From Clostridiaceae bacterium (GTDB lineage: Bacteria; Bacillota; Clostridia; DSM-8532), in the NCBI GenBank assembly GCA_012521105.1, contig JAAYNA010000024.1, positions 1 to 64,000 on the forward strand: a stretch of DNA of 64,000 nt. Reading direction: 5' to 3'. Each line of letters begins with the position of its first letter. The first letter of the stretch is position 1. Below the pieces are notes generated by a model, which ran no database searches, was not told the DNA's origin, and saw nothing but the letters and a program-made list of their open reading frames with translations. Position numbers and translations under genes: made by a program. Below, one piece after another: positions 7,412-51,679 of this stretch.

Positions 7412-7418
7412 AGCATTG

Positions 7419-31285: not shown

Positions 31286-31320
31286 AAATAATATTTGAGA
31301 TAAACATAACATTTCACCTG

Positions 31321-31349: not shown

Positions 31350-31426
31350 TAAATAAATGTATGAAACAAAAGAAAAATCATAAGGAAAATATCTTCACCA
31401 AAAGAGAATCACTGGAGACATGTAAC

Positions 31427-34027: not shown

Positions 34028-34051
34028 CAGATTATTTTATCGGGAGGAAAT

Positions 34052-35074
34052 ATGATATCAATAAATGACGAGAGAATAAAGAAATATCTTACCCCATGCA
34101 AATACCCTGAGCCGGTACTGGTTGGCTCTGGAGTTCCCGGTGCCTTTGATGAAAAATCTGTGGACATTCCGTTTGTCTTTGCCCACAATAACCGATATTA
34201 TATGCTGTATACCGGCTTCGACGGAAAGAGTTATCAGTCTGCACTGGCGGTAAGTAATGACCTGCTCAACTGGGAACATAAAGGTATTATTCTTAAAAGA
34301 CTGGAAAACAGCAAAAGGTGGGACCGGATTGGAGCTGCCGCTACGTGGATGATTAAGGAAAGCGATAATCTTTATGATACTCCCAGGTTAAAAAAGATTG
34401 ACGGGAAATATTGGCTTGTGTATCATTCCTATCCCGGTACTGGTTATGAGGAAGGGCCGGCCGAAATAGGCCTTGCCTGGACCGATGACGAAGAACTGCT
34501 TCACTGGAACCGCCTTGAACAGCCTGTGCTTTCCTGGAAGGACGGGCAGGAATGGGAGCGGGGCGGTTTGTATAAAGCTTGTATTATCAGGCACAATGAT
34601 ACCTGGTACATGTTTTACAATGCAAAAAACACAGAGAGACGATGGATTGAACAGACAGGAGTGGCCATCTCAGAAAACCTTTTAAACTGGAAAAGATATG
34701 ACAAAAATCCTGTTCTTAAAGTTACACCCGGAAGGTGGGACGGAAGATTTGTTTCTGATCCGTATGTCGTAAAGGATGGCGACCTTTGGCTGAATTTCTA
34801 TTTTGGCTATGATAACGGGCATGCCCAGGAAGGCCTGGCCTTATCAAAAAATCTTCTGGACTGGCAGAAGGTAGATGAACCCATCCTGAGGCACGGGAAA
34901 CCCGGTGAACTGGATGAGGGCCATGCCCATAAAGCATCGATCTTCTACCATAATGGAACATTGTATCATTTTTATTGTGCAACAAGACCATACAGAGAAG
35001 GTGATCCGACAAAGGTGTTTAATGAATTCCGCACCATTGTCGTTGCTGCGGGAAAAGAACTGCCAACAGCTTAG
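34052..35074 (+). CDS. Five-bladed beta-propeller glycoside hydrolase (GH43/GH130-like)
   Basis: A 340-residue protein with repeated blade motifs (NRYYMLYTGFDG, KYWLVYHSYPG, TWYMFYNAKNT, DLWLNFYFGYDNG, TLYHFYCATRPY) and acidic residues between blades, typical of the GH43/GH32/GH130 propeller group. The exact family and substrate cannot be settled by eye; an arabinofuranosidase, beta-xylosidase or glycoside phosphorylase is possible. No signal peptide. GGGAGG precedes ATG 34052. It follows GH78 by 24 nt in the same operon. Confidence 0.75.
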   Translation: MISINDERIKKYLTPCKYPEPVLVGSGVPGAFDEKSVDIPFVFAHNNRYYMLYTGFDGKSYQSALAVSNDLLNWEHKGIILKRLENSKRWDRIGAAATWMIKESDNLYDTPRLKKIDGKYWLVYHSYPGTGYEEGPAEIGLAWTDDEELLHWNRLEQPVLSWKDGQEWERGGLYKACIIRHNDTWYMFYNAKNTERRWIEQTGVAISENLLNWKRYDKNPVLKVTPGRWDGRFVSDPYVVKDGDLWLNFYFGYDNGHAQEGLALSKNLLDWQKVDEPILRHGKPGELDEGHAHKASIFYHNGTLYHFYCATRPYREGDPTKVFNEFRTIVVAAGKELPTA

Positions 35075-35160
35075 AAGCTGATTTATGCAGGTTAAACAAT
35101 GCAAAATAAAAAGAACAGGAGGAGCGGGGTTGTAACGCTGACAGTCCCGGAAAAAAGTAT

Positions 35161-37770
35161 ATGAAAAAGCTGAAGGAAGTATTGAACAATAAGTCGAAAA
35201 ACTATATACTCCCATTTTTCTGGATGCATGGTGAACCCCATGATATTCTCCGGGAAGAATTAGACAGAATTGAAGAATGCGGGATACGGGAAGTTTGTAT
35301 TGAATCAAGGCCTCACCCTGACTTTTGCGGACCGCACTGGTGGAAAGATATAGACTTTATTATTTCAGAGGCCAGGAAAAGGGGAATGAGGGTATGGATT
35401 CTGGATGACGATAAATTCCCCACAGGCCACGCCAATGGAGCCTATGAAAAAAAATATCCCGAGCTTTCCAAAATATATCTTGCCGAACGTCATATGGATG
35501 TTATCGGACCCGTCAAAAATGGTGTAGTATTGATACAGCCTTTTCTTGGCAAGGACGGAAAACTTATTTCTGTGCTGGCATGTCCCAAGACCGATACCGA
35601 AACCTTGGATATTTCAGCCGACGGTATTATAGATTTGACCGAAAATGTATATAACGGTTTTGTATATTTTGATCTGCCGAAGGGAAGATATCGTCTTTTT
35701 GTACTGTTCACAACCAGGAAAGGAGGCGGCAGGGAAAATTATATTAATCTCATTGATCGCGACTCGGTGCGGGTTTTGATAGACGAGGTTTATGAAAAGC
35801 ATTATGAGCGGTATAAGGATGAATTTGGAAAGACGCTGGCAGGTTTTTTCTCTGACGAGCCTGAGCTGGGGAATACCCCCGGCTATGATTTCCATGAAAC
35901 CCTTGGGAAACCCGATGTCCGGCTGCCCTGGAGCAATGCTCTTGAAACAGCTCTTAAAGAGCTTTGGGGTGAGGATTTTGCAAAAAACCTCCCTGCGCTG
36001 TGGTATGGAATGGGAGAGAAAACCATACCCGTCAGATCACAGTACATGGACCAGGTAACACGCCTGGTGCGGGAATGTTTTTCAGAGCAGCTGGGGAAAT
36101 GGTGTGAAGAACATAATGTTGAGTACATAGGCCACATAATAGAAGACGACAATGCCCATACCAGACTTGGATGCAGTATCGGCCATTATTTCAGGGAACA
36201 GAAGGGACAGCACAGGTCGGGTGTTGATCTGGTTCATTTCCAGATCCTTCCGGGATTTAATGAAAAGGTACACCGGTGGCTTTCGTGGGAAACAGATGGC
36301 GAGTTTTTTCATTACGGTCTGGCAAAGCTGGGCAGCTCCAGCGCACATATTGATCCTAAAAAGCAGGGAAGAGCAATTTGCGAGATTTTTGGCAATTTCG
36401 GCTGGGCCGAAGGAGTAAGATTGATGAAATGGCTCACCGACCATATGCTTGTTCGTGGGATCAATCATTTTGTGCCCCATGCCTTCTCACCCAAATTTCC
36501 CGACAGGGACTGCCCACCGCATTTTTATGCAAGGGGGAATAATCCCGGCTATCGCTTTTTTGCACATTTAATGCGATATATGAACAGGGTTTGCCATCTT
36601 TTGAACGACGGAATACATTTGACAGACGCAGCTGTATTGTATCATGCCGAAGCTGAATGGACCGGTGAAGAAACTATGCTGTTCCAGAAACCTGTCAGAA
36701 AGCTTCTTGAAGCACAACTGGACTGCGATGTTATTCCTGCCGATGTTTTTGAAGAAGACTATGTACATGTGGAAAATAGCAGACTTTTTATTCACAGGCA
36801 GCAGTATGGCTCATTAATTATTCCGGGATGCAGGTGCATTCCGGCTAATGTGGCAGACTTTGTAATAAAGGCAGCGAAAGCAGGGCTACCCGTTTATATA
36901 ACCGGAATTACGCCTGAAAAAGATACGCTGAACAGACCTTTACCCGAAGATTTTAAGAAATCTTACACAGCTTTACCGTTGGAGGATTTATCCGAAACCA
37001 TCCGGAAAAATCAGAAAACCCAAATCAGCTGCAGTACAGTGAATAAAGATCTTCGTTTCCTTTGCTATAAACATGATGATGGAATATTGTACTTTTTCTT
37101 TAATGAAAGTGTTGATAATATGGTTGATACCGAGATAACCATTCACAATGGCTCATATTCACAGATTACTGAGTATGATGCCCTTAATAACCGGGTACAT
37201 CATTACCGTCTGGAACAAAACCGTTTCAGGCTGGTTCTGGAACCCAGCCAATCAACTGTTTTTATTCTCGGTAATAGTTTTAAAGGACGGGTAGAAAGCC
37301 GGCCGGTTCGCACAGGATTTACCGTAATAGATTGTGACTGGACGGTATCTGCCAGTTCTACCAAAGATTATCCTGATTTCAAAAAGATACTGGAGATTCC
37401 GAAAGGTGAGGAAATGCCAAATCTGAACGGCCCGGGTTATTTTCCCGAGTTCTCAGGTTTCTACCGCTATGAAGGTTCCTTCGAAGTGAATGTTGGAGAA
37501 GATGCACAAGTGATGATAAAATTCCCAAGAATCAATGACTGTGCCCTTGTTTTTGTAAATGGCAAAGAGGCAGGTATGGTTATTGGAAGTCCAAACCGGC
37601 TGGATATCACCGGGCTTGTGAAGCCGGGTGTTAATGAGCTTGTAGTAGATGTCAGCAATACATTGGTCTGGCAGCTTAAGGATGGTGCATCAACACAGAT
37701 GCAAATTGAACCAACGGGTATAACCGAAAAACCTTTGCTGGAAGTTTACCACATCAAATCTGACCGATAA
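35161..37770 (+). CDS. GH106-like glycoside hydrolase (rhamnosidase-related TIM barrel with jelly-roll domain)
   Basis: An 869-residue cytoplasmic protein. The N-terminal half looks like the GH106-related TIM barrel: LPFFWMHGEP, the alternating ECGIREVCIESRPH, WWKDIDFIISEARKRGMRVW and LDDDKFPTG, then GFFSDEPELG with candidate catalytic acids. The C-terminal part has a galactose-binding jelly roll (LVFVNGKEAGMVIGSPNRLD). GH106 enzymes are alpha-L-rhamnosidases, several acting on rhamnogalacturonan II, but this lineage is distant. ATG 35161 has only a weak GGAAAA site; the good AGGAGG at 35117 instead precedes TTG-TAA. Confidence 0.7.
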   Translation: MKKLKEVLNNKSKNYILPFFWMHGEPHDILREELDRIEECGIREVCIESRPHPDFCGPHWWKDIDFIISEARKRGMRVWILDDDKFPTGHANGAYEKKYPELSKIYLAERHMDVIGPVKNGVVLIQPFLGKDGKLISVLACPKTDTETLDISADGIIDLTENVYNGFVYFDLPKGRYRLFVLFTTRKGGGRENYINLIDRDSVRVLIDEVYEKHYERYKDEFGKTLAGFFSDEPELGNTPGYDFHETLGKPDVRLPWSNALETALKELWGEDFAKNLPALWYGMGEKTIPVRSQYMDQVTRLVRECFSEQLGKWCEEHNVEYIGHIIEDDNAHTRLGCSIGHYFREQKGQHRSGVDLVHFQILPGFNEKVHRWLSWETDGEFFHYGLAKLGSSSAHIDPKKQGRAICEIFGNFGWAEGVRLMKWLTDHMLVRGINHFVPHAFSPKFPDRDCPPHFYARGNNPGYRFFAHLMRYMNRVCHLLNDGIHLTDAAVLYHAEAEWTGEETMLFQKPVRKLLEAQLDCDVIPADVFEEDYVHVENSRLFIHRQQYGSLIIPGCRCIPANVADFVIKAAKAGLPVYITGITPEKDTLNRPLPEDFKKSYTALPLEDLSETIRKNQKTQISCSTVNKDLRFLCYKHDDGILYFFFNESVDNMVDTEITIHNGSYSQITEYDALNNRVHHYRLEQNRFRLVLEPSQSTVFILGNSFKGRVESRPVRTGFTVIDCDWTVSASSTKDYPDFKKILEIPKGEEMPNLNGPGYFPEFSGFYRYEGSFEVNVGEDAQVMIKFPRINDCALVFVNGKEAGMVIGSPNRLDITGLVKPGVNELVVDVSNTLVWQLKDGASTQMQIEPTGITEKPLLEVYHIKSDR

Positions 37771-37818
37771 CCGGGGTACGGTATACATGTACCTGATACA
37801 AACATAAGGGGTGATATA

Positions 37819-40800
37819 TTGGAAAGGTTTAAAAACATTAGCTTGAGGCTACCACCACTGCCCGATTTTGTTGAAAATATCAACAATCCCGTTATTGAGA
37901 TTAATCCTGATTGGAGGATTAATGATTTTTCAGATAAAAGAAGTGAAAAGTTAGTTTCGGAAATCACAAAAGACGAGCCCTTCCTGCTGGATGAAGAGGG
38001 TCTAAGATATCAGACGTATATTTCAATTCCCGAGGAATTTCAAAACAAAACCATTCTGCTCAGGTTTAACAGAACAGGGTGTATTGCCACCGTCCGGGTG
38101 GATGGAAAATTCATCCGCAATCATTATGGCGGCCACACACAATGGGACTGCGACATAACCGATGTGGCTCAGAATAAGGCGGGTGTAGAGGTTCAACTGA
38201 ATTTACAGGACCGACCGGGAGAATTAAGCCCCTATGCGAAAGCCGGGGTGTTCGGAAGTATTAAGCTTATTGCACTGCCCCGATCCTACATACAGAGTCT
38301 TTATACTGAGCCGGTAAGAGACAGTGATGGGAACTATTCTCTTAATTTATATTATGGGACGGTAATTGGAGAAAAAGAAGGGGAGTACACTCTGAAGGCT
38401 TATATTTCAGATCAGAATTCTGTGGATATTGCCACCGCCGATTTGGATATTAATAATACCCGGCAGAAAATTTTCTGTGGAAAGGTACAGGAATGGGACA
38501 GTGAACACCCGAACCTGTACAGATTGAAGCTCAGGCTTATGAACGGGGAAAAGATCCTAGAAGAAACCGTTCAGAACGTGGGTTTTCGAAGTATTGAGAA
38601 GAATTCAGGACAGATTCTTTGGAACGGGCGTCCGTTAAAGCTCAGAGGTATTAATTACCGTGAACCTCTTTGCGATGAACCATACACAGATATAAAGCGG
38701 GATCTTATGCTTTTCAAGCAAGCCAATATTAACTATATCCGCGGGCTTTTCTATCCATTCAGCGACGAATTCCTTTCACTGTGCGATGAAATGGGTTTTT
38801 ATGTAGAAAACATGGCCCCGGCCTGGGAGGTGGACAGCCAGACCAGATCCACACAAAATGCACCCGAATACAGGGATGTGTATTTGAATCAGTTGTCGGA
38901 AATGCTTCAGACAGGCCTTTCACATGTAAGCGTTACAATCTGGTCACTGGGTAGTGACAGTACATGGGGAAGTAATTTCAGGGAAGGATACAGGATGATT
39001 AAAGCCATTGACGGTACAAGGCCTGTAAATTTCCATTTCCCGATGTCAATACCCGAAGAGGAGCCTCAAATGGATGTGTGGTCGGTTGCTCATGCAGACT
39101 ATCGCCTTCCCCTTGATAAACACTACGATACTATGGTTATCTTTCATACCCATGGCAGTGACAATCCAATAGGATATGCCACCGGAAGTGCCACAGGCTA
39201 CCAGATACCGGTGCTTCATACGGTATTTGCCCACCTTCCATGCCATAACCGGGATCAAATTGAAAGAGATCCGGGAATCCATGAATTCTGGGGAGAAAGT
39301 ATCAAAAGATTCTGGGATATAATGTGGAAAACCAGAGGAACACTGGGTGGGGCGGTAATGGCTGCTGTGGATGAAGACGGCACTTTTTCGCCCAGGCTGA
39401 GAGATCATCATTGGGGAATTTTAAACGCGAAGCATGAACCAAAACCTGAATATTACCACATTAAAATGGCCTATGCTCCGGTGAAGGTATCAAATATTGA
39501 GATAAAGGAAGATAAACTGCGGTTTACCGTTGAAAATAGGTTCAACCACACCAACCTGAATGAAGTTACTGCCAAATATGTCCGGGACGGTAAAGAAAAA
39601 GTTTTTCAGCTGGAACTTGCCCCCGGTGAAGTTAAAACAGTGGAGTTAAGCCTGGATCCAAAGGGTGAAGGTAACAGAACTGATATTTGTTTTGACTACC
39701 GTAATATCCGTGTTTACGAAACTGCGGTGTTTTCGCAGAAAAGGGAACTGAAGGCAAGAGCTGAAGATGTAAAACCTGAATCTTTCAAAATCACCGAAGA
39801 TGACAGAACCATATTTATTGAAAACAATATCTGCTCCTTTTTATTCTGCAAAAAGACCGCGTTAATGACAGAAGGAAGACTGGACGGGAAACTGGTTCTG
39901 TGTGGCGGGCCATATCTTCAGGCAACCCGTTTGAAACTGGAACAATGGGTGGGAACCTGGATATCCTGCACAATGAGCGAGAAAGGGGCAAGGGTGGTAC
40001 TGGAAGGCAGGTATGGAAAGGTATGCTCGGTAAGATTTGTACTGGATATAGGAATTAACGGGGAGATTGATACCCTGTGTACAATTCTTTCACTGTCAAA
40101 GCACATGCCTCATACTGTGAAGGCAATTATCGGTGTTGACCCCGGCGGACTGGATGAGCTGGGAATACATTATATTGTTCCCGGAAGCTTCAGCCGGCTT
40201 GAATGGAGACGTGAAGGCCTGTGGCCTGTTTACCCGGATGATCATATAGGTCGTCCTGAAGGTCTGGCATTAGCTGAAAATCCTGATGATTTCCGCAGCA
40301 TGAAACATCATATATATGGGGCCATATTAACAGACCCTGAGAACAGGACGGGTATCAAAGTTGTGTCCGACAAAACCCACTCCATACGCCTTGAAGCACA
40401 GCCCGATCCCGATTGTATAATTGATGACCGTGACGAAAGAATTCAGTACCATGGAACCTGGTACAGTATGGATGACTATTGCGGCAATTACTGTGATACC
40501 GAAACACTGAGCCGGACAAAAGGCGATTACCTGGAGTTTGGATTTAAAGGAACAGGCATAAAAGTGTACGGACCTTTGGATGTTCTGCACGGAAAATGCA
40601 ATATTTCCATTGACGGCAATATTGTGGCAGAAAACATCAGCCAATACTTAAGTCCTGTTGATTTTCCGGGAGCCAGTCGGGGCTATGAAAAACGGTACAG
40701 GGTTCTGCTCTTTGAAATTACCGGTCTTGAATATAAAGAACACGTAATGCGTATTACCGTTACCGGTGAACATGAAGCCGGTGCTCAGGGGAGCTATGTT

Positions 40801-40992
40801 TCAATAGACTATTTTGTCGTTGAAAAACCTGATACCGATGGGCAGCTGAAACTGATTATAAATAACGATTATAACTATACCCGTTTGGTTCGCGGCAATT
40901 TTATGAGGCCAAAGGTGGAATTCAAAGTATCGGATCAGTTCGGAAACCGCATCAGGTTGATAAAACTGAAAGAGGACGGTGAAGATTTATGA
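37819..40992 (+). CDS. GH2-family protein lacking both catalytic glutamates (probable pseudoenzyme)
   Basis: A 1057-residue protein with GH2 order: sugar-binding domain (GCIATVRVDGKFIRNHYGGH), Ig-like domain, TIM barrel and extra C-terminal beta domains. It is paralogous to the next gene along most of its length, for example FWGESIKRFWD and IINNDYNYTRL. The acid/base Asn-Glu reads Ser-Asp380 (IWSLGSDS), the nucleophile position is Val469 (LHTVFAH), and the RxSHYP histidine segment reads RGLFYPF. Canonical hydrolysis is therefore unlikely; glycan binding, complex formation or changed chemistry are options. TTG 37819 follows GGGGTGAT. The stop overlaps the next start (ATGA). Confidence 0.85.
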   Translation: MERFKNISLRLPPLPDFVENINNPVIEINPDWRINDFSDKRSEKLVSEITKDEPFLLDEEGLRYQTYISIPEEFQNKTILLRFNRTGCIATVRVDGKFIRNHYGGHTQWDCDITDVAQNKAGVEVQLNLQDRPGELSPYAKAGVFGSIKLIALPRSYIQSLYTEPVRDSDGNYSLNLYYGTVIGEKEGEYTLKAYISDQNSVDIATADLDINNTRQKIFCGKVQEWDSEHPNLYRLKLRLMNGEKILEETVQNVGFRSIEKNSGQILWNGRPLKLRGINYREPLCDEPYTDIKRDLMLFKQANINYIRGLFYPFSDEFLSLCDEMGFYVENMAPAWEVDSQTRSTQNAPEYRDVYLNQLSEMLQTGLSHVSVTIWSLGSDSTWGSNFREGYRMIKAIDGTRPVNFHFPMSIPEEEPQMDVWSVAHADYRLPLDKHYDTMVIFHTHGSDNPIGYATGSATGYQIPVLHTVFAHLPCHNRDQIERDPGIHEFWGESIKRFWDIMWKTRGTLGGAVMAAVDEDGTFSPRLRDHHWGILNAKHEPKPEYYHIKMAYAPVKVSNIEIKEDKLRFTVENRFNHTNLNEVTAKYVRDGKEKVFQLELAPGEVKTVELSLDPKGEGNRTDICFDYRNIRVYETAVFSQKRELKARAEDVKPESFKITEDDRTIFIENNICSFLFCKKTALMTEGRLDGKLVLCGGPYLQATRLKLEQWVGTWISCTMSEKGARVVLEGRYGKVCSVRFVLDIGINGEIDTLCTILSLSKHMPHTVKAIIGVDPGGLDELGIHYIVPGSFSRLEWRREGLWPVYPDDHIGRPEGLALAENPDDFRSMKHHIYGAILTDPENRTGIKVVSDKTHSIRLEAQPDPDCIIDDRDERIQYHGTWYSMDDYCGNYCDTETLSRTKGDYLEFGFKGTGIKVYGPLDVLHGKCNISIDGNIVAENISQYLSPVDFPGASRGYEKRYRVLLFEITGLEYKEHVMRITVTGEHEAGAQGSYVSIDYFVVEKPDTDGQLKLIINNDYNYTRLVRGNFMRPKVEFKVSDQFGNRIRLIKLKEDGEDL

Positions 40993-43900
40993 ATTTGAAA
41001 TATAAAGAACCCGAAATACCCAAATTGGTTCCAAAACCCTCATATGTAAAGGGGGTTGTAAATCCTGTGATATCGCTGGATGGTACGTGGAAGATCATTC
41101 ATACCGATGATTTTGCAAAAGCCCGTACCGACGAAAACTGGATGGACTGGGCCGACATAACCGTCCCGTCGGATATGAGGGTACACCGAAACAGAATAGA
41201 AGACTGGACAGGCTTATTTGTATATAAAAAGATGGTGACCGTGCCCGATGAAATGGCGGATATGGACCTGATACTGAGGTTTGAAGGTGTTAACGGATTT
41301 GCAAAGGTTTATATAGATGACAAGTTTGTTATGGAGCATAAAAACGGGTTTCTTACATGGAATCTCAATATAACCAGGTTTGTAAACCGAAAGAGGCAAT
41401 TTGTTATTACTGTTGAGGTGGATAACATTTCAGATAAAGTCTGCTATCACAACCGGGGAGGAATAATCCGCAGTTCAATGATTTATGCCCTGCCGAAAAG
41501 TCATTTTACAATGCTGCATACCACAACAACCATGCAGGGCAGCCGTGATTTATGGAATTTAAAGATCCATTTTGATATATCGGTTCACCACCGGGATGTC
41601 GGTTATAAGTTTGAACTGGTCGATACCGACGGCAGAATAATTATGGACAATATACCCGTTGTACAGCTTCCGGGAGGCTCAACAGACGGTTTGGCAGAAG
41701 CAGTTGTACAAAACCCCCTGTTATGGGATGCCGAACATCCCTGGTTATACTATGTCAGGGCATCTGTATACAACCGGGGAGAGTTTGTGCAGCAGGTTAT
41801 GCATCGGTTTGGATTCAGACAGATTACCCGGGTGGGGAACCAGCTGTTTGTAAATGGAGACGAAGTTAAGCTTCGGGGTTCGTGCCGGCATGAAGTTACG
41901 CCGCTGAACGGCCGTGCAGTTGCCAGGGAGGATATAGAGCAGGACATTGCACTGTTTAAGGAAGCTAACTGCAACTATATCCGCACTTCCCACTATCCGC
42001 CCAGTGAATACTTTCTGGAATTGTGTGATGAAAAGGGAATTTATGTTGAAAACGAACTGGATACGGCTTTCATAGCAAGAACTTTAGACTATACCCAGCG
42101 GGACCCCGAACATACAGAAAGATATCTGTCGCTGTTTGCCGAACTTCTGGCAAGGGACTACAGTCATCCCTGTGTACTGATCTGGTCATTGTGCAACGAA
42201 TCCTTCGGAGGATACAATTTTGATTTATTGAACCGTTTTGCAAAAAGGATGGATCCGACCCGTCCAACGAAGTTCAGCTATCCGATGACCATGAGACAGG
42301 AACATGAACCTGTTGACATATGGAGTATTCACTATTCAAATCTTGAGGAGGATTTATCAAAGAAATGTGATAATGTCAGCGTGGGTTATACGCCCGGAAA
42401 GGATGTTCCGGTAATTCATGACGAATATGCCCACATTCCCTGCTATAACAGGACTGAACACAGACGGGATCCAAATATACGGAATTTCTGGGGAGAGAGC
42501 ATCAAACGCTTCTGGGACAAGATATGGAATACCAAGGGAGCATTAGGGGGTGCCATTTGGGCAGGAATTGACGAAACCAATCTGTTCTTAGGGGGGGATG
42601 TTTCTCTTGAATGGGGAATCATAGACATCTGGAGGAGGAGAAAGCCAGAACACTATTTAACAAGAAAGGCCTATTCACCTGTGGTATTACGTCCTGAAAC
42701 ATTACAGATAAAGGATGGCGAACTGTCTTTCGAGGTTGAAAACCGCTTTTGCCACACCAATCTTTCTGAAGTCACCATGGTTTGGAGCTGGGGAAGCCAA
42801 AACGGGAAAACATTATGCCCCGATGTAAAACCAAGAGGTTTCGGACGGGTATGTATTACAAAATACGGGGATGCAGAATTGAACCAGCCAATCAATATTT
42901 ATTTTGTAGATCCCTTTGGACTGCAGGTGGACGAGTACAGAATTGTGCCCGAAGATTATCTGAACACTGGGGAAAAGTCGGATAGTAAACTTTGGCATGC
43001 ATCAGACAATAATCAGTCAGTAATAAGATATGACGAAGAGGGTAACGAGTTTACTCTGACAGCAGGCTTTTTTGCTCTGACCTTTGATAAAAAAACAGGG
43101 TTACTTAAGAATGGTTCGGTAGATGGTGAAACAGTTCTTATAGGGGGCCCGTTCCTGAACACACCTTACCTGAAGCTTGGACAATGGATAATGTCGGACT
43201 TTGACATACGATTAAAAGAGCCTTTAAAATGCGAAATAAAAATTAGCGGAAGTTACGGGACTCAGATGGATGTGACCTTTTTAATCACAATTTTTGCCGA
43301 TGGTACTGTACATACCCGTTACACAATAGATGAGCTTAAAGTGCCGCTGCCAAAACAGGTGAAACTTCGTGTGGGAGTTGACTGCGGAGGCCTGGACGAA
43401 ATAGGTGTATATTTTATAGCCAGTCCGGTCATGGATACATTCCAATGGAGAAGAAAAGGCCAATGGACAGTTTATCCCGACGATCATATCGGCCGTTGCG
43501 AGGGTATTGCGAAGAGGAGAAGCGTCGGAAGTGAATTTGGCAAAAAGCCTGAAATACCCTGGTGTGAAGAGATGAAAAGCTATATCCTGAATGGGAAATA
43601 TGATGTGGATTACAGGGGAACCAACGACTTCAGAAGCCTTAAGGCCAATATTCTTTCTGCATCGCTGTACAGAGCCGGAGGCAAGGGTGAAATTGAGGCA
43701 GTATCCGGGGGCAGCCATTCTGTTAGGCTGGAGATACAGGAGCCTGAAAACAGAATTATACCAAATGATGATCCCCGTATTATCTATAAAGGCAACTGGT
43801 ACAGGATTGATGATTACACCGGCAGCCTGAACGGTACAGAGATGTGGACAAAGGAAGCGGGAGCATATGCAGAGTTTACCTTTGAAGGCACCGGAATTGT

Positions 43901-44312
43901 CTGGTATGGACCGGTTGACACTATTTATGGCACTGCCCGTGTATATATTGACGGGGAGCTTATGGACGGAGCTGTCAATCAGAAGGTGAACGGGGTTGAT
44001 TTCCCGGGTTCAGCACCGGGTTATGACAAGAAATACAATTACCCGGTTTATTCAATTACCGGTCTTGAAAACAAAGCCCATACCATACGTATAGAGACTA
44101 CAGGAGAGAAAAGCGGAGGAGTAAAGGATTCCTACATTGTTCTGGACCATTTCAGGGTTATTTGTGAAGAAAATGAGGAACCTGTCGGCTTCATTATCAA
44201 CAACGACTACAATTATCCTCATATTGCATGGGGTAACTACTGTAAGCCCGCAATAATGATAGATACAGGCTATAGTAACAGTGTTGTTATGAGGCTGAAA
44301 AAAAGAGTATAA
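40989..44312 (+). CDS. Glycoside hydrolase family 2 enzyme (intact catalytic site)
   Basis: An 1107-residue GH2 enzyme. After the sugar-binding and Ig-like domains the barrel shows KLRGSCRHEVTP, YIRTSHYPPSEYFLELCDE, the acid/base IWSLCNES (Glu404) and nucleophile VIHDEYAH (Glu479), so retaining hydrolysis is expected. Beta-galactosidase, beta-glucuronidase or arabinopyranosidase are all possible; specificity is not readable. Long C-terminal beta domains end in IINNDYNYPH, shared with the upstream paralogue. No signal peptide. The 4-nt overlap with that paralogue suggests coupled, roughly equal synthesis. Last gene of the importer block. Confidence 0.9.
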   Translation: MNLKYKEPEIPKLVPKPSYVKGVVNPVISLDGTWKIIHTDDFAKARTDENWMDWADITVPSDMRVHRNRIEDWTGLFVYKKMVTVPDEMADMDLILRFEGVNGFAKVYIDDKFVMEHKNGFLTWNLNITRFVNRKRQFVITVEVDNISDKVCYHNRGGIIRSSMIYALPKSHFTMLHTTTTMQGSRDLWNLKIHFDISVHHRDVGYKFELVDTDGRIIMDNIPVVQLPGGSTDGLAEAVVQNPLLWDAEHPWLYYVRASVYNRGEFVQQVMHRFGFRQITRVGNQLFVNGDEVKLRGSCRHEVTPLNGRAVAREDIEQDIALFKEANCNYIRTSHYPPSEYFLELCDEKGIYVENELDTAFIARTLDYTQRDPEHTERYLSLFAELLARDYSHPCVLIWSLCNESFGGYNFDLLNRFAKRMDPTRPTKFSYPMTMRQEHEPVDIWSIHYSNLEEDLSKKCDNVSVGYTPGKDVPVIHDEYAHIPCYNRTEHRRDPNIRNFWGESIKRFWDKIWNTKGALGGAIWAGIDETNLFLGGDVSLEWGIIDIWRRRKPEHYLTRKAYSPVVLRPETLQIKDGELSFEVENRFCHTNLSEVTMVWSWGSQNGKTLCPDVKPRGFGRVCITKYGDAELNQPINIYFVDPFGLQVDEYRIVPEDYLNTGEKSDSKLWHASDNNQSVIRYDEEGNEFTLTAGFFALTFDKKTGLLKNGSVDGETVLIGGPFLNTPYLKLGQWIMSDFDIRLKEPLKCEIKISGSYGTQMDVTFLITIFADGTVHTRYTIDELKVPLPKQVKLRVGVDCGGLDEIGVYFIASPVMDTFQWRRKGQWTVYPDDHIGRCEGIAKRRSVGSEFGKKPEIPWCEEMKSYILNGKYDVDYRGTNDFRSLKANILSASLYRAGGKGEIEAVSGGSHSVRLEIQEPENRIIPNDDPRIIYKGNWYRIDDYTGSLNGTEMWTKEAGAYAEFTFEGTGIVWYGPVDTIYGTARVYIDGELMDGAVNQKVNGVDFPGSAPGYDKKYNYPVYSITGLENKAHTIRIETTGEKSGGVKDSYIVLDHFRVICEENEEPVGFIINNDYNYPHIAWGNYCKPAIMIDTGYSNSVVMRLKKRV

Positions 44313-44330: not shown

Positions 44331-44359
44331 TTGACCTTATTTACATGTATTGCTATAAT
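44331..44359 (+). promoter_or_regulatory. Sigma-A promoter of the sugar-catabolism operon
   Basis: TTGACC (44331-44336), a 17-base spacer and a perfect TATAAT (44354-44359). It lies about 50 bases before the racemase-like gene and just upstream of the palindromic operator at 44371-44390, so it starts a transcript separate from the GH2 block. Confidence 0.8.
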
Positions 44360-44370: not shown

Positions 44371-44390
44371 AACATCCTACGTAGTATGTT
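44371..44390 (+). promoter_or_regulatory. Palindromic operator, probably for the GntR regulator at 47818
   Basis: AACATCCTACGTAGTATGTT is palindromic at 18 of 20 positions (only positions 6 and 15 break the symmetry). It starts 11 bases after the -10 box, the right place for a repressor to block initiation or early elongation. The operon encodes a FadR-type GntR protein, the natural candidate binder. Twelve bases recur as ACGTAGGATGTT at 27435-27446. Confidence 0.7.
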
Positions 44391-44409: not shown

Positions 44410-45081
44410 ATGAAAGTTGCAACTGTCTATACAAGTACCACCCCGGAATTAATACAAATGGTGGATGACTATCTTGAAAAACATTTTCAGGGCGAGGACC
44501 TGACAATAATGAAATATCAGGATCCCAGCATTTTAAAGGAAGCCATTGATAACGGATATGTAACAAAGGGTTGTGCCAGACGCCTTTTGGATCTTTACGA
44601 AAAAGCATGTGATGACGGGGCACAGATTCTTTTCAATATCTGCTCATCGGTCGGTGATGTGGCAAAACTGGCAAAGCCTTTATATGAAATGACGGGCGTT
44701 AAATTTGTTCGAATTGATGAAGATATGGCAATGGCTGCTGTTGAGGCAGGCAGCCGGATTGGGGTTTTAGCCACCCTTCCCACCACTTTGGAACCTACAA
44801 AGCGCCTGGTTCAGGATTGCGCCGACAGAATAGGGAAGAAAATCGAGATCATAGACGCCCTTGCAGAAGGTGCCTTTGGCCTTGACCAGGAGCAGTTCAA
44901 GAAAAAGCTGATTCAGACAGGTCAAAAAGTTAAGGATTGGATAGATGTGCTTATTCTTGCCCAGGGTTCAATGGCTTATGCCGAGGAAGCAGTATCACAG
45001 GCGCTGGGGCTTCGGGTTTTCTCCAGTATAAGGTACGGTACTGCTGCAGTGAAAAAAGCTGCTGACAGTATAGAAAAATAA
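44410..45081 (+). CDS. Aspartate/glutamate racemase superfamily protein with one catalytic cysteine
   Basis: A 223-residue protein of the Asp/Glu/hydantoin racemase fold. The first catalytic cysteine is present (LFNICSSVGD, Cys78), but at the second site, where racemases have a Cys, it reads ILAQGSMAYAEE. Two-base racemisation is therefore unlikely; decarboxylase, isomerase or lyase chemistry using one cysteine is possible. AAGGTGAT precedes ATG 44410. It is the first gene of a sugar operon without amino-acid genes, so its substrate is probably a sugar-derived acid, by inference. Confidence 0.8.
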   Translation: MKVATVYTSTTPELIQMVDDYLEKHFQGEDLTIMKYQDPSILKEAIDNGYVTKGCARRLLDLYEKACDDGAQILFNICSSVGDVAKLAKPLYEMTGVKFVRIDEDMAMAAVEAGSRIGVLATLPTTLEPTKRLVQDCADRIGKKIEIIDALAEGAFGLDQEQFKKKLIQTGQKVKDWIDVLILAQGSMAYAEEAVSQALGLRVFSSIRYGTAAVKKAADSIEK

Positions 45082-45105
45082 CGAGAGAAAGTTTTGGTGG
45101 TTTAT

Positions 45106-45981
45106 ATGAAACTTATAAACAGTATCTGCACGAATCTCTTTTTCCCGGATTCACGTAAGGATATCCACTCCTTTCATGACATGGCCCAGTTTCTGTCTGA
45201 TAAAGGAATTGAAACAATTGAGTTTTACCACGACGGACAGCAGCGGGGGAAGGTTGGAAAGGTCCTGGCAGATACCGGGTTAAAGGGAGTGTATATTGCA
45301 GTAATACCATCGAAAGAGAAAAAGCTGTACCTGTGCGATGAGGATGAACAGGCAAGACGCGAGGCTGTTAATCTTTTTAAATATTGTATTGACGAAGCAC
45401 AGGATAACGGCATCGGTGAGGTTATGCTCAATTCAGGCAGGCTGGGGAACAGCATAGACCAAGGCCTTTTAAATCTTACCCAATCGGTTGAGGAGCTTTT
45501 TAACCATATTGACAGGAAAAACTACAAAATAAAGCTCCTGCTGGAACCATGTGACAGTAAGATTGATGCTTTTCATCTTATCGGTCCTTACAGCCGTACT
45601 CTTGAATTTGTTAAAAATTTGCGGGAAAAAGGATTACCACTGGAATTAACAATGGACACAGCCCATACCGTTGAAGAAGGCGAGGATTTTTTAGAAGCAT
45701 TAACTGCGGTTAAGGAATACTGCAACCAGATTCATTTTGCCAACTGTTATTTAAAAAATCCGGCCGATGAACTATATGGCGATAAGCACCTGGGCTTTGA
45801 GTATCCTGATACAGAATGGACGGTACCTGCCCTGGAAGAACTTTTCACAGAACTTGAAAAACTGTACGCCAACGATGAACCATTAAGAATCGGTCTTGAG
45901 GTATTATGCCGGACCGATGATCCTTATGATTACTTTGAAGATACGTGGAGCAGCCTGCCTTTTCTGCATAAAGAAGAATAA
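45106..45981 (+). CDS. Sugar (phosphate) isomerase/epimerase, AP-endonuclease-2 TIM barrel
   Basis: A 291-residue TIM barrel of the xylose isomerase-like/AP endonuclease 2 superfamily. Metal-binding positions are visible as IKLLLEPCD, ELTMDTAHT, QIHFANCYLK and LRIGLEVLCR, the usual Glu-Asp-His-Glu arrangement around a divalent metal. Such proteins interconvert aldoses/ketoses or epimerise keto-sugars. ATG 45106 follows GGTGG. It sits between the racemase-fold gene and the transketolase halves and probably prepares or recycles a ketose. Exact substrate unknown. Confidence 0.82.
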   Translation: MKLINSICTNLFFPDSRKDIHSFHDMAQFLSDKGIETIEFYHDGQQRGKVGKVLADTGLKGVYIAVIPSKEKKLYLCDEDEQARREAVNLFKYCIDEAQDNGIGEVMLNSGRLGNSIDQGLLNLTQSVEELFNHIDRKNYKIKLLLEPCDSKIDAFHLIGPYSRTLEFVKNLREKGLPLELTMDTAHTVEEGEDFLEALTAVKEYCNQIHFANCYLKNPADELYGDKHLGFEYPDTEWTVPALEELFTELEKLYANDEPLRIGLEVLCRTDDPYDYFEDTWSSLPFLHKEE

Positions 45982-46050
45982 AACCTGGCAAACAGCCAAA
46001 AAGAGACTAATGAAAACAAAAAGGAATCGGATTATGTTTGGGGGATAGAA

Positions 46051-46869
46051 ATGACTACAAAAGAATTAAAACAAATGGCCAACAGGCTTCGTATGGATGT
46101 GGTTGAAACAATCCACCATGTTGAGGATGGACATCCCGGACCCTGTATGTCCATTGCCGAAATAATCACTGTACTTTATTTCAGCGAAATGAATATCCGC
46201 CCCGAAGAGCCCCGATGGCCACTACGTGACAGATGTATTCTTTCAAAGGGTCACGCCTGCCCCATTCAATATGCCGCAATGGCCCGAAAAGGGTATTTTG
46301 ACATGGATGAGTTGAAAAAACTGCGTAAACTGGATGGAATACTGCAGGGGCATCCCGACATGAATAAAACTCCCGGGATTGACTCTGTTTCGGGTTCGCT
46401 GGGCAATGGTGTGGGTATCGGCCTGGGCATTGCTTTGGGATGCAGAATGCAGGGCATTGATAATTTTGTTTATGTAATTATTGGTGACGGAGAACAGCAG
46501 GAAGGCGTTGTATGGGAAGCTGCAATGGCTGCAGCCAAACACAAGGTGGGAAACCTTATTGTGCTTGCCGATTGTAACAATAACCAGTCGGGGGGTAAGG
46601 TCACAGAGCTGAGTTCCCTTTATCCGGCGTCTGAAAAATGGAGTTCCTTTCAATGGCATGTTCAGGAAATTGACGGCCATGACGTTGAAGCAATAAAAAA
46701 TGCCATCGCAAATGCCAAAGCCGTTACAGACAGGCCTTCATATATTGAATGCAGAACCATAAAAGGCAAGAACATTCCCTATATGGAAAACAATAATGCA
46801 TGGCATAAGAGAGTTCCAACAAAGGAAGAGGTTGAAATTGCAAGAAAATATCTGGGAGGTGCGGTATGA
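46051..46869 (+). CDS. Transketolase, N-terminal (thiamine-binding) subunit
   Basis: A 272-residue protein equal to the pyrophosphate-binding half of transketolase. Seen are KGHACPIQYAAMARKGY, GSLGNGVGIGLGIALG and the thiamine-diphosphate motif GDGEQQEGVVWEAAMAAAKH ending in LADCNNNQ. Split transketolases are common in Firmicutes and Archaea and work as heterotetramers with the C-terminal subunit. It overlaps the next gene by 4 nt, giving balanced synthesis. A transketolase inside a glycosidase locus suggests a dedicated substrate rather than general pentose-phosphate duty. Confidence 0.93.
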   Translation: MTTKELKQMANRLRMDVVETIHHVEDGHPGPCMSIAEIITVLYFSEMNIRPEEPRWPLRDRCILSKGHACPIQYAAMARKGYFDMDELKKLRKLDGILQGHPDMNKTPGIDSVSGSLGNGVGIGLGIALGCRMQGIDNFVYVIIGDGEQQEGVVWEAAMAAAKHKVGNLIVLADCNNNQSGGKVTELSSLYPASEKWSSFQWHVQEIDGHDVEAIKNAIANAKAVTDRPSYIECRTIKGKNIPYMENNNAWHKRVPTKEEVEIARKYLGGAV

Positions 46870-47804
46870 AAACAAAAAGTACACGTGAAGCAGCAATGCG
46901 TGCCATAATAGAATTGGCCGGACAGGATGAACGTATTGTAATCGTATCTCCTGATTCACTTCTGGCATCCAGAGCCGTACCTTTTCTGGAAAGATTCCCC
47001 GACAGATTAATAGAGGTTGGAATTGCAGAGCAAAATGCCGTTCTGGTAGCAGCCGGGCTTGCAACTACCGGAATGAAGCCTGTTGTCATCTCTTATGCAG
47101 GGTTTCTGACCATGAGGGCATGCGAGCAAATCCGTACCTTTGTTGCCTACCCGGGCTTAAATGTAAAATTTATCGGTTTAAACGGGGGTATGCTGGGTGG
47201 CGAAAGAGAGGGAGTTACCCATCAGTTTTATGAAGATGTTGGAATTTTGCGTTCAATGCCAGGTGTAAGTGTTATTACTCCGGCAGATGCAGGGCAGGCA
47301 TATAAAGCCACAAAAGCAATGTTTATGCGGGAGGAACCCTGTTACATGCGTTTGGGAAGTGGCCGTGAACCCGAAGTTTTTCCCGACGATACGCCCTTTG
47401 AGTTCGGGAAAATCCGGGTTGTTAAGCATTACGGTGACGATGTGGCCATTTTCGCGTCGGGCTTTATTATGAACAGGGCTATTGAGGCTTTGGAGCTTTT
47501 GAAGGCTGAGGGTATTAATGGTCTTATTGCAGATGTCTCCACTGTAAAGCCCATTGACAGCGAAACTGTTACTGAAATACTGAAGAGAACAAACTGTGCA
47601 GTTGCCGTTGAAGATCACAATATTTACGGTGGTATGTCTTCGGCTGTCAGCGAAATATCTTCACTTTACCATCCCTGCCGCGTAATACGTCTTGGTCTTA
47701 ACGATATATACCCGCGCAGTGGTCATGCTGATGAACTGCTGGATGCTTACGGTTTGTCGGTACAGTCAATAGTAGATGGAGCAAAGAAGGCAATGAGCAA
47801 GTAA
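46866..47804 (+). CDS. Transketolase, C-terminal (pyrimidine-binding) subunit
   Basis: The 312-residue second half of transketolase. It has the PYR domain with VGIAEQNAVLVAAGLA (the glutamate that activates thiamine diphosphate), FIGLNGGMLGGEREGVTHQ, a GVSVITPADAGQAYKATK segment and the C-terminal transketolase domain (VAVEDHNIYGGMSSAV). ATGA overlap with the N-terminal subunit. Similar split pairs act on apulose-4-phosphate (AptAB) and sulfofructose (SqwGH) in characterised pathways; specificity here is unknown. Confidence 0.93.
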   Translation: MKTKSTREAAMRAIIELAGQDERIVIVSPDSLLASRAVPFLERFPDRLIEVGIAEQNAVLVAAGLATTGMKPVVISYAGFLTMRACEQIRTFVAYPGLNVKFIGLNGGMLGGEREGVTHQFYEDVGILRSMPGVSVITPADAGQAYKATKAMFMREEPCYMRLGSGREPEVFPDDTPFEFGKIRVVKHYGDDVAIFASGFIMNRAIEALELLKAEGINGLIADVSTVKPIDSETVTEILKRTNCAVAVEDHNIYGGMSSAVSEISSLYHPCRVIRLGLNDIYPRSGHADELLDAYGLSVQSIVDGAKKAMSK

Positions 47805-47817
47805 GCAGGTGATTATT

Positions 47818-48549
47818 ATGAGAAAGGCAAATATTAAAAAAGATGAGAGACTATTGGACCCCATGGATAATAAATCTGTTGTGGATCGGATTATTGCAAG
47901 AATCACAAACGCAATAATCAATGGTGAACTGCTTCCCGGACAGAAAATACCAACAGAAAGCGAACTGTGCGAATCAATGCATGTAGGGCGTAATTCTGTG
48001 CGTGAGGCAATAAAGGTTTTGGTGGCCATGGGCGTGCTTATTATAAAACGGGCCGAAGGCACCTTTGTTGCTGAGGGGTTTTCAGACAGAATGCTGGATC
48101 CGATGGTGTATGGCTTAATACTTGAAGGCGGAAACACCAAATATCTGATTGAATTCAGAAGAATGCTCGAGGTAGGAGTGTTGAACCTTGCCATACAAAA
48201 CGCAACAGAAGAAGACATTGAAAAACTTAAACAGTCTTTTGACAGATTCTGCAATACGGTACGTAATAATTCATCAATTGAGGAAATCCTGGATGCCGAT
48301 ATTGAATTCCATCGTACACTGGAAAAGTCGGTGCACAATCCGCTGGTGGAAAAGATCTGCAATGTGGTGGAGAGATTGTCAAGAGAAACGCGGGCAAGGG
48401 CCACAGAACAGTTTATTACAAAAGAGGAACTGGACAGAATTTGCGAATTGCATGAGCGTATCATTAATGTTTTGATAAACAGGGATGAAGCTGCGGTATT
48501 GGGTGTTATTGATGACCATTATCAGTACTGGAAAGATGAAATTAAATAA
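47818..48549 (+). CDS. GntR-family (FadR subfamily, FCD domain) transcriptional regulator
   Basis: A 243-residue regulator with an N-terminal winged helix (PTESELCESMHVGRNSVREA, then KRAEGTFVAEGF) and an all-helical FCD ligand domain (EFRRMLEVGVLNLA, DIEFHRTLEKSVHNPL, HERIINVLINRDEAAV), whose Asp and His residues usually bind a metal with a carboxylated or sugar-acid ligand. It likely represses its own operon through the palindrome at 44371-44390. ATG 47818 follows AGGTG; the frame is open from 47809. It lies mid-operon, between transketolase and transaldolase. Confidence 0.92.
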   Translation: MRKANIKKDERLLDPMDNKSVVDRIIARITNAIINGELLPGQKIPTESELCESMHVGRNSVREAIKVLVAMGVLIIKRAEGTFVAEGFSDRMLDPMVYGLILEGGNTKYLIEFRRMLEVGVLNLAIQNATEEDIEKLKQSFDRFCNTVRNNSSIEEILDADIEFHRTLEKSVHNPLVEKICNVVERLSRETRARATEQFITKEELDRICELHERIINVLINRDEAAVLGVIDDHYQYWKDEIK

Positions 48550-48596
48550 AATCTAAATTGAAATAATAAATTGAAAACTTAACAGGAGGGGAAGCA

Positions 48597-49649
48597 ATGG
48601 GATATTTTAAACGGGTGGCTGAACTGACACCAACACGTTTATGGATAAACAATGTAACGGCAGAACAGGCCAGGAGAGGAATAAAAGCCGGTGCTGTCGG
48701 TTGCACGCAGAATCCATCCTATGTGTCAAAAATGCTCCAGTTTGACGGGTCCTTATGCCAGCGTTTGTTTGACAAGTGGATTGAAATTGAAGATGATGAC
48801 AATGAAGTATTAATACAGGTCCAGGCAGAGCTGGTAGGGCTTATTGCCAAAGAATTTCTGCCCCTTTATGAAGAGTCCTGCGGTAAGCTGGGCTATGTAA
48901 CAATTCAGGGTGACCCCTTCAATGAAACAACCGAATCTATTATGCGTCAGGCAGAGATAGCAAGACAATACGGTCCCAATATTATGATCAAAATACCGGT
49001 TGTGCCCGAAGGTATTAAAGCAATCTCTGCTCTTGCCGGCGAAGGCATACCTTTGTGCTTAACTGAAGTTTTTGCACTGCGACAGGCCATAGACATTTGC
49101 GAAGCGCTGCTGGATGCAACAGAAGGGAAAGTAAAGCCTGTTGCATACCTTGCACATATTGCAGGCATTTATGATGAGTACCTGGGTAATTATGTGAAGG
49201 AAAACAATATCGATATTCTGCCCGATGTTTTATGGCATGCCGGGATTGCATCAGCAAAAAAGGTATACGCAGTGGTGAAGGAAAGAAGATACCCGGTTGA
49301 GTTTTTGGGTGGCGGTGCCAGAGGAACACATCATTTTACCGAAATGGTTGGTGCTGAAGCATCTGTCACAATTAACTGGGCTGGAATGGGCGAAACACTG
49401 GATGCTTCCGATACCCTTGTTATACAACGCTTTTTTATGCCAACGCCTCATACAGTTATTGATCAGTTGCTTGATAAATTGCCCGATTTCAGAAAGGGTT
49501 ATTTTGAAAATGGCATAACACCGGATGAGTTTGAATCTTTTGGTCCGGTTGCATTATTCAGAAACACTTTTGAAAAGGGATGGAAGGAAGCACGGGATGC
49601 CATTTCCAAAAGACGTGCAGAATTAAAAAATGGAGGTAAGTCATGTTAA
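48597..49649 (+). CDS. Transaldolase-family protein
   Basis: A 350-residue class I aldolase-fold protein. The Schiff-base lysine is Lys132 in NIMIKIPVVPEGIKAI; the N-terminal LTPTRLWINNV and GCTQNPSYVSKM and the later GGGARGTHHFTEMVG are transaldolase-like. It is longer than small fructose-6-phosphate aldolases and diverges from canonical TalB, so it may split or transfer the dihydroxyacetone unit of an unusual ketose. ACAGGAGG precedes ATG 48597. It overlaps GH127 by 7 nt. Confidence 0.85.
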   Translation: MGYFKRVAELTPTRLWINNVTAEQARRGIKAGAVGCTQNPSYVSKMLQFDGSLCQRLFDKWIEIEDDDNEVLIQVQAELVGLIAKEFLPLYEESCGKLGYVTIQGDPFNETTESIMRQAEIARQYGPNIMIKIPVVPEGIKAISALAGEGIPLCLTEVFALRQAIDICEALLDATEGKVKPVAYLAHIAGIYDEYLGNYVKENNIDILPDVLWHAGIASAKKVYAVVKERRYPVEFLGGGARGTHHFTEMVGAEASVTINWAGMGETLDASDTLVIQRFFMPTPHTVIDQLLDKLPDFRKGYFENGITPDEFESFGPVALFRNTFEKGWKEARDAISKRRAELKNGGKSC

Positions 49650-51604
49650 CAAACACCGAACATTCACGTTATGCAAAAACTTACTCGCTACCGTGGAATG
49701 CGGTTAACTGGACCGGTGGCATATGGGCTGACGTATTCAAAACCTGTGCCGAAAATACAATTCCGCATATTAGGAAAATGTTTGAAAGCAAAGATATCAG
49801 TCATGTTGTAGAAAACTTCAGAATAGCAGCGCGGGAAAAAGAAGGCAGATTCAACGGAACTCCTTTTGGTGACGGTGATTTTTACAAGTGGATGGAGGGA
49901 GCTATCTATGTAGCCTGTAAAAATAACGATGAAAAATTATTAAAGGTGATTGATGAATATGTTGATTTAATCAGCCGCGCCCAGCTTGATGACGGGTATA
50001 TCTCTACGAAACAGATAATTGGGGAGATGAACAACGAAGATGTATCCCGCCTTGGTGATATTAATGACTTTGAAGTATATAATTTTGGTCATTTATTCAC
50101 CACTGCCTGCATCTACAAACGCCTTACCGGAAAAGACAATTTGATGAATGTTGCTGTTAAAGCTGCCAACTATTTAGAGAAAACATATCAGGAAGCAGCA
50201 AGGACAGGTGAGGTGAAAACTGCAGTTTGTCCTTCCCATTACATGGGCTTGATTGAAATGTACCGTACAACAGGCGAAAATCGTTTTCTTGACCTTGCAC
50301 AGCTGTCAATTACCCTCAGGGATTCGGTGAAAAATGGTACCGATGATAATCAGGACAGAATACCGCTTAAAGAGCACGAAAAAATAGTAGGACATGCAGT
50401 GCGTTCAAACTACCTGTATGCCGGTGTGGCAGATTTATACGCTGAAACGGGTGACAGTGATTACCTTGATATGCTCAACAAGGTATGGAAAAACCTCGTG
50501 GAACAAAAAATATATGTGACCGGAGGCTGCGGTGCATTGTATAACGGAGTCTCGCCTTATGGTAATTTCTGGATAGATCAGAAGGTACATCAGGCTTATG
50601 GTCATGAGTATCAACTTCCCAATATTACAGCCTATAATGAAACCTGCGCGTCAGTGGGCAGTGTATTATGGGCATACAGAATGTTTACAATTCAGCCCGA
50701 AGCACACTACTTTGACATAATTGAAAAAACAATGCTGAACGTGAACCTTGCTGCTATCAGCATTGACGGACAAAAGTTTTTCTATGAAAACATGCAAAGA
50801 AGGGCCAAAAAACTTCCCTTTGAACTGTGCTGGCCATTAGAGAGAAAAGAGTATATATCAAGCTTCTGCTGCCCTCCAAATCTGGCCAGGCTTTTATCCG
50901 AAACATCGGAATACGCATATTCCTTATCCGAGGATACTGTGTGGCTGGGAATGTATGGAGAGAATGAAGCCCAAATTGAGCTGAAAAATGGTGCTTCCTT
51001 TACACTGGTTCAGAAAACTCAATACCCCTACTGTGGAAAAATACATTTTTCATTTAAGGATGCAAACAGCAAAGCCTTTAAACTCAATATTCGCATACCC
51101 GACTGGGTTGAAAGCGGGAGTATATCTGTTAACGGTAATGTTGTAAAGGAAATTTCGGTTCAGGACGCTTCTACATATTATACAGTGGAAATTGAAGATC
51201 CTTCAAAATCCGATATAACAGTTTATTTCGACATGCCTGTCAGGTTTACTGTTGCCCATCCTCTTGTTGAATCCAATACCAACCAGGTAGCCGTTGAAAG
51301 AGGGCCTATAGTATATTGCATTGAGTCACAGGACACAGAACTTGAGACCCTTGATGATTTAATGCTGAAGATAGACGGGGAATTTACACCTGTGGAATAC
51401 GAAATTATGGGCAGAAAAATGATCGCCCTCGAAGGGGAAGCCTGGCGAATTAAAAGAGATTCATACAATCCTGAAAAATTATATCAGCCGATGAAGTTTA
51501 AAGGGCTGGATCAGGTATCCATCCGTCTTATTCCGTACCATGCCTGGGATAACAGAGGGTTTGGTGAGATGAAAATATGGCTGCCTGTTGCAATTGGACA
51601 GTGA
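49643..51604 (+). CDS. Glycoside hydrolase family 127 (beta-L-arabinofuranosidase type)
   Basis: A 653-residue cytoplasmic GH127 (DUF1680) enzyme. The zinc/cysteine active site is complete: ETC (Glu333, Cys335 in YNETCASVG) and CC (Cys409, Cys410 in SFCCPPNLAR), where one cysteine acts as nucleophile in characterised members. The N-terminal FWDVF-like WADVF and the central AQLDDGYIS are also typical. Members release beta-L-arabinofuranose or aceric acid from plant glycans. TGGAGG precedes ATG 49643. Last gene of the operon; a strong terminator follows. Confidence 0.93.
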   Translation: MLTNTEHSRYAKTYSLPWNAVNWTGGIWADVFKTCAENTIPHIRKMFESKDISHVVENFRIAAREKEGRFNGTPFGDGDFYKWMEGAIYVACKNNDEKLLKVIDEYVDLISRAQLDDGYISTKQIIGEMNNEDVSRLGDINDFEVYNFGHLFTTACIYKRLTGKDNLMNVAVKAANYLEKTYQEAARTGEVKTAVCPSHYMGLIEMYRTTGENRFLDLAQLSITLRDSVKNGTDDNQDRIPLKEHEKIVGHAVRSNYLYAGVADLYAETGDSDYLDMLNKVWKNLVEQKIYVTGGCGALYNGVSPYGNFWIDQKVHQAYGHEYQLPNITAYNETCASVGSVLWAYRMFTIQPEAHYFDIIEKTMLNVNLAAISIDGQKFFYENMQRRAKKLPFELCWPLERKEYISSFCCPPNLARLLSETSEYAYSLSEDTVWLGMYGENEAQIELKNGASFTLVQKTQYPYCGKIHFSFKDANSKAFKLNIRIPDWVESGSISVNGNVVKEISVQDASTYYTVEIEDPSKSDITVYFDMPVRFTVAHPLVESNTNQVAVERGPIVYCIESQDTELETLDDLMLKIDGEFTPVEYEIMGRKMIALEGEAWRIKRDSYNPEKLYQPMKFKGLDQVSIRLIPYHAWDNRGFGEMKIWLPVAIGQ

Positions 51605-51643: not shown

Positions 51644-51679
51644 AAAGGTCAGGTGAATCAGGTCCACCTGACCTTTTTC
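51644..51679 (+). terminator. Terminator of the sugar-catabolism operon
   Basis: AAAGGTCAGGTG (51644-51655) pairs perfectly with CACCTGACCTTT (51665-51676), with a 9-nt loop and a TTTTT tail. It lies 40 bases after the GH127 stop. Confidence 0.92.

Follow-up and report, generated by a model that had tools for sequence, protein, structure and literature searches.

Rhamnogalacturonan II (RG-II) is the most complex plant polysaccharide, and the acid of its side chain B is aceric acid (3-C-carboxy-5-deoxy-L-xylose), an acidic branched sugar. While the enzymes that dismantle RG-II are known, what becomes of aceric acid is not, and our literature search found no paper describing its catabolism. Among the closest described systems, a D-apiose pathway with AptAB was reportedly set out by Carter et al. 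2018. The AptAB genes of E. coli are given in PMC13001218, a bifurcated sulfo-transketolase/sulfo-transaldolase (sulfo-TK/sulfo-TAL) pathway for sulfoquinovose has been described for Faecalicatena (PMC11659671), and BT1003 is a characterised aceric acid hydrolase (PMC5698469, PMC10850190). Here we analyse a 64,000-nucleotide stretch from a plant-fibre-degrading Clostridiaceae bacterium (contig JAAYNA010000024.1; the window) and within it an operon joining an isomerase-like protein, a split transketolase, a divergent transaldolase, a racemase-fold protein and a GH127 glycosidase. We read this operon as a dedicated GntR-controlled catabolic module for the aceric acid of RG-II side chain B, with a probability of about 0.48. 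If true, it would provide the first known breakdown route for aceric acid and close one of the last gaps in the utilisation of RG-II, and cleavage by transketolase and transaldolase without a kinase, to date observed with sulfoquinovose, would prove to be used more widely on acidic sugars. A handful of purified enzymes would suffice to test so small an operon.

The operon and its control elements comprise the following features.

44331-44359, + strand: promoter-like site TTGACC-17-TATAAT (11/12), with TG before the -10 element (extended -10)
44371-44390, + strand: palindromic operator AACATCCTACGTAGTATGTT, a predicted GntR site, with the 18-bp core ACATCCTACGTAGTATGT at 44372-44389
44410-45081, + strand: Asp/Glu-racemase-fold protein (PF01177), gene 1 of the operon
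45106-45981 (start approximate), + strand: xylose-isomerase-like TIM barrel (PF01261), with an E-D-H-E pattern of metal-binding type read by eye
46051-46869, + strand: transketolase N-terminal (ThDP-binding) subunit
46866-47804, + strand: transketolase C-terminal subunit
47818-48549 (start approximate, ATG 47818 being the likelier), + strand: GntR/FCD regulator within the operon
48597-49649, + strand: divergent transaldolase-family protein (PF00923)
49643-51604, + strand: GH127 of BT1003 (aceric acid hydrolase) type by sequence, with no apparent signal peptide
about 51646-51678, + strand: intrinsic terminator, 10-bp stem AGGTCAGGTG/CACCTGACCT followed by TTTTT; a weaker form is also listed

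For the TIM barrel, ATG 45106 is a more likely start than TTG 45094, and the GH127 and transaldolase genes overlap by 7 bp. The original prediction, a single operon with an operator and a terminator, was borne out with every gene in place, and a promoter and an internal GntR gene, the latter missing from its gene list, can now be added. The operator core ACATCCTACGTAGTATGT has a chance expectation of 0.00 copies in the window, and its perfect form occurs once per genome in the host (G000) and in G024, a member of the same genus (DTU070), upstream of the racemase-fold gene. In G397, which belongs to another family, the operon is preceded by TATAAT and then a half-site of the operator, AACATCCTACGT. 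Other near-matches in G000 and G024 were no commoner than in a backwards control, and no wider regulon is claimed. Because promoter, operator and terminator bound the genes, the regulator is encoded inside and the operator core is unique, the genes make up, on sequence evidence, a self-contained unit rather than a random succession. The operator is probably the site of the operon's own GntR protein, and the unique operator together with this regulator supports a dedicated rather than a housekeeping role.

The GH127 protein provides the first pointer to the sugar. Its best solved relative is 5mqo (44% identity; 571 bits vs 330 for the next GH127), which we take to be the structure of BT1003, its PDB label reading only "beta-L-arabinofuranosidase". 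An insert around QKVHQAYG and the stretch LPFxLxWP-ERxEYIS are common to both proteins and missing from the GH127 paralogues of the host and of G465, the Cys/Glu catalytic motifs are present, and an aceric-acid-hydrolase model gives 793 bits, with about 490 and 400 (piece sums) for the host's other GH127s. These features assign the GH127 of the operon to the BT1003 type. Most characterised GH127 enzymes are beta-L-arabinofuranosidases, and GH137 also releases L-arabinose from RG-II, so that an ordinary beta-L-arabinofuranosidase serving a module for a neutral sugar (L-arabinose, or a methylated or deoxy sugar) must be weighed; however, the BT1003-type insert and the model scores speak against it, as does an importer in G397 that implies an acid, and we consider it improbable.

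The operon was compared across genomes. In G024 the run from the racemase-fold gene to GH127 is intact while the upstream cluster at 17.5-44.3 kb is missing. In G397, orthologues of the racemase-fold protein, TIM barrel (65%), transketolase, GntR regulator (64%) and transaldolase were found at 64-78% identity, with no GH127 by model search; they are accompanied by a TRAP transporter (DctP/Q/M), and its binding protein comes closest to the sialic-acid-binding SiaP. Since organic acids are what TRAP systems import, this linkage and the SiaP-like binding protein make an acidic substrate probable. It is the type of the GH127 and the homologue linked to TRAP genes that now favour aceric acid, itself among the sugars named in the original prediction.

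The same kinase-free logic may nevertheless serve a different acid, either a uronate-derived ketose or the C4 acid remaining after pyruvate removal from the Dha/Kdo of RG-II chains C and D, with the transaldolase and transketolase releasing C3 or C2 acid semialdehydes. Acid character is fixed by TRAP/TTT linkage alone, relatives of the racemase-fold protein cluster with genes for C4 acid sugars, a tartronate-semialdehyde-reductase-like gene adjoins the transaldolase in G113, a cupin does so in f141 and G815, and UxaC is missing from G397. However, a pyruvate-releasing lyase is absent from the operon and from the G024 and G397 clusters, the GH127 and chain-B enzymes point to aceric acid, and the host encodes UxaC outside the window. 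A different acid is thus possible, though unlikely. The hexuronate route as such was rejected, UxaC lying elsewhere in the host genome.

The transketolase further strengthens the case for a dedicated operon. Both subunits are present, and the conserved His and Arg that bind phosphate are kept, which is consistent with glyceraldehyde-3-phosphate as acceptor. The host carries two further split transketolases, one at C62 near genes of galactose-utilisation type (read from sequence) and one at C132. In the tree, the window pair and its orthologues from G024, G397 and the distant lineage f141 make up a clade of their own (100/100), apart from housekeeping and AptAB transketolases and from those of sulfoquinovose-type loci (L044/L045/L053, stand-ins identified by context). 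The AptAB pair of E. coli SE15, taken by its locus tags from PMC13001218, clusters instead (100/99) with the copy at C132 and with another transketolase that the f141 genomes carry. The unique operator, the operon's own regulator and this separate clade support the proposed dedicated transketolase/transaldolase route without a linked kinase.

These placements bear on apiose, one of the examples named in the original prediction. A split transketolase within an RG-II setting would fit an AptAB-like apiose route, and AptAB works on a branched ketose, but AptAB does not group with the window pair, and the C132 locus (L063) has its own GH140-like, isomerase and FGGY-kinase genes. Apiose appears to have its own place in the genome, given the AptAB-like transketolase, GH140-like, isomerase and kinase genes there, so that it was set aside as the operon's substrate and is now very improbable. 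Within L063 (G000:C132:30000-49999), positions 1419-17179 hold a GH140-like gene (named by eye), the AptAB-like transketolase, an SftI-like isomerase and the FGGY kinase. This kinase scores above the glycerol kinase cut-off, and its substrate may be dihydroxyacetone formed by the cleavage and not apulose. A sulfoquinovose pathway was likewise tried and rejected, as the transketolase and transaldolase fall in other clades and a sulfoquinovosidase was not found: neither GH31 nor GH188 was present among the scanned cluster proteins, GH31 of YihQ type occurring in the reference loci L044 and L053.

The transaldolase-family protein (PF00923, 92.8 bits against a cut-off of 27) keeps the Schiff-base lysine as Lys132, aligned with known transaldolases, and a second TalB-type arginine as Arg242, while TalB Asp17, Glu96 and Arg181 are replaced across the clade by Asn18, Gln104 and Ile191, the last invariant in alignment A1. 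In TalB, Arg181 binds phosphate and Asp17 is an active-site residue. The loss of these three equivalents points to a substrate that carries no phosphate and perhaps to aldol cleavage in place of transfer, so that the enzyme may work as an aldolase on a branched keto acid without phosphate. It is highly divergent and the sole PF00923 member of the host genome, and its clade is separate in the tree from the transaldolases of inositol operons and of sulfoquinovose loci.

Its singularity might suggest that the enzymes simply top up the pentose phosphate pathway, which would also fit the scarcity of annotated transaldolase, mostly lacking in cellulolytic clostridia according to PMC7029132. However, operator and regulator are dedicated, the phosphate-binding and acid/base residues are lost, and of four genus members searched, two (G025 and G026) yielded no homologue, all of which makes such a role highly unlikely.

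Inositol operons of Clostridia (L047, L048, L050, L051 and L052) also include a transaldolase-family gene. L048 has iolD, iolE and an MmsA/iolA-type dehydrogenase above cut-off, and across these operons the iolC kinase and iolJ aldolase were not seen nearby. It is possible that these operons split 5-dehydro-2-deoxygluconate into fructose-6-phosphate and malonate semialdehyde without a kinase, and our literature search found no paper describing a transaldolase in inositol catabolism.

The racemase-fold protein was examined for its catalytic residues. Cys78 is invariant in the family, and the position of the second catalytic Cys is Q-x-S throughout (Gln185-x-Ser187), so that the description of it as a one-cysteine protein is correct in the catalytic sense and the cysteine pair of cofactor-independent Asp/Glu racemases is lacking. 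Since only Cys78 is kept, a one-base tautomerase, epimerase or decarboxylase would be expected rather than a two-base racemase, and we propose a keto-acid tautomerase/epimerase or decarboxylase. Relatives adjoin threonate/3-oxo-tetronate kinase-like, PdxA2 and tartronate-semialdehyde reductase genes, several of them with a split transketolase, and at L099 a relative accompanies a glyoxylate-reductase-like gene, a split transketolase and an acid transporter. This company of tetronate-type genes suggests that the racemase-fold/transketolase pair handles C4 keto acids. The TIM barrel is proposed to be the aldose-ketose isomerase of the acid sugar. A solved-structure search by sequence returned no relative of either the racemase-fold protein or the TIM barrel. 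AlphaFold2 models from two-sequence alignments reached pLDDT 44.5 for the transaldolase and 59.6 for the racemase-fold protein and were not used, and viral-contig scans with both profiles gave no matches. Other racemase-fold relatives (L092 9945-10604 and L096 2-664) lie beside GAPDH-like, PGK-like and LarA-like genes named by eye.

Taken together, a route can be sketched whose substrate, products and order we infer from sequence-based evidence, namely the operon unit, operator, GH127 type, clades and active-site residues. The upstream glycosidases would trim imported RG-II fragments intracellularly, and GH127 would free aceric acid, which the TIM barrel would isomerise to a 3-C-carboxy-2-ketose. 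The C-C bonds would then be broken without a kinase, a reaction presumably proceeding without prior phosphorylation. In the favoured order, the transaldolase-fold enzyme would cut this ketose at C3-C4 in a retro-aldol reaction, releasing acetaldehyde and 2,4-dihydroxy-3-oxobutanoate (3-oxo-tetronate), the racemase-fold protein would shift or invert the carbonyl/hydroxyl of this C4 3-oxo acid, and the transketolase would move a C2 unit to glyceraldehyde-3-phosphate, yielding xylulose-5-phosphate and glyoxylate. Alternatively, the racemase-fold protein may first act as a decarboxylase, turning the branched ketose into a 5-deoxypentulose for cleavage by transketolase or transaldolase. A dedicated, kinase-free role in the use of an acid sugar is very probable for the operon; that its substrate is aceric acid is less firm, at about even odds, though firmer than the order of reactions. 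It is rather doubtful that a transaldolase-fold aldolase on an unphosphorylated branched keto acid, a one-Cys tautomerase and a transketolase leaving glyoxylate together make up the first aceric acid pathway.

Several observations weigh against the aceric acid module. The GH127 family is polyspecific, and the window member, at 792.7 bits, falls below the NCBIfam NF049879 curated cut-off of 950. Transaldolase homologues at 43-57% identity occur in other contexts, among cupins, a TTT transporter and a tartronate-semialdehyde-reductase-like gene, so that membership of this clade does not point to any single sugar. In f141, the racemase-fold/transketolase/transaldolase module sits in an RG-II island with GH137-like, GH140-like, AptAB-like and pectate-lyase genes, but it has no adjacent TIM barrel, a BT1003-type GH127 was not among the hits seen, and a DUF1537 kinase lies about 6-7 kb downstream of the homologous module. 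On the question of kinases linked in relatives, this distant lineage is the one to show any, none being linked in the window, G024 or G397. The original prediction had also called the operon free of a sugar kinase and of a class II aldolase. No class II aldolase is present in it, and no linked kinase, for apulose or otherwise, turned up in the operon or among the scanned cluster proteins, the window as a whole not having been systematically Pfam-scanned.

The neighbourhood of the operon adds a setting for RG-II degradation, with two features upstream.

27560-44312, + strand: cluster of an ABC sugar importer, GH78, GH137-like, GH106-like and two GH2 proteins, absent at this place in G024
34052-35074, + strand: GH137-like beta-propeller enzyme of this RG-II glycosidase cluster, with best solved matches 5mt2/5mui and 148 bits to NF049877

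The structures 5mt2/5mui are presumably the BT0996 N-domain. The window also encodes GH95, GH29 and an acetylesterase, and its predicted glycosidases match the requirements of side chain B. From GH95 to the operon, positions 17480-44312 hold a transporter/glycosidase block of roughly 27 kb that G024 lacks at the syntenic place, by which comparison it is a variable carbohydrate island. Within it, a URO-D-family protein at 19030-20064 (- strand) is 56-59% identical to RG-II-island proteins of f141 (L088 5288-6358, L089 2340-3374 and L090 2120-3205), and a corrinoid (B12-binding) protein, recognised by sequence motif, lies on the same f141 contig as the URO-D-family gene (L122 9480-10115). The two kinds of protein possibly act in the O-demethylation of RG-II methyl sugars.

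Compared with known systems, the operon departs from tetronate (threonate/erythronate) catabolism of the DUF1537/PdxA2/OtnI type in that it lacks a DUF1537 kinase, PdxA2 and a class II aldolase, although racemase-fold relatives sit in such loci. With the D-apiose pathway it shares a split transketolase, the substrate of AptAB being a C-branched ketose of RG-II, but that pathway has a sugar kinase, the window transketolase is in a different clade and the host has its own apiose-type locus. BT1003 is approached through 5mqo as the closest solved structure, the shared insert and the Cys/Glu motifs, whereas the window GH127 is 44% identical, under the NCBIfam cut-off and co-transcribed with catabolic genes. 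In contrast to the sulfo-TK/sulfo-TAL pathway, the transketolase and transaldolase form separate, well-supported clades, the isomerase is a TIM barrel and not of SftI/SqvD type, and a racemase-fold protein and GH127 are added; yet in architecture the two are alike, with an isomerase, a split transketolase and a transaldolase in one kinase-free cluster for an acidic sugar, and in both C2 or C3 units are expected to go to glyceraldehyde-3-phosphate.

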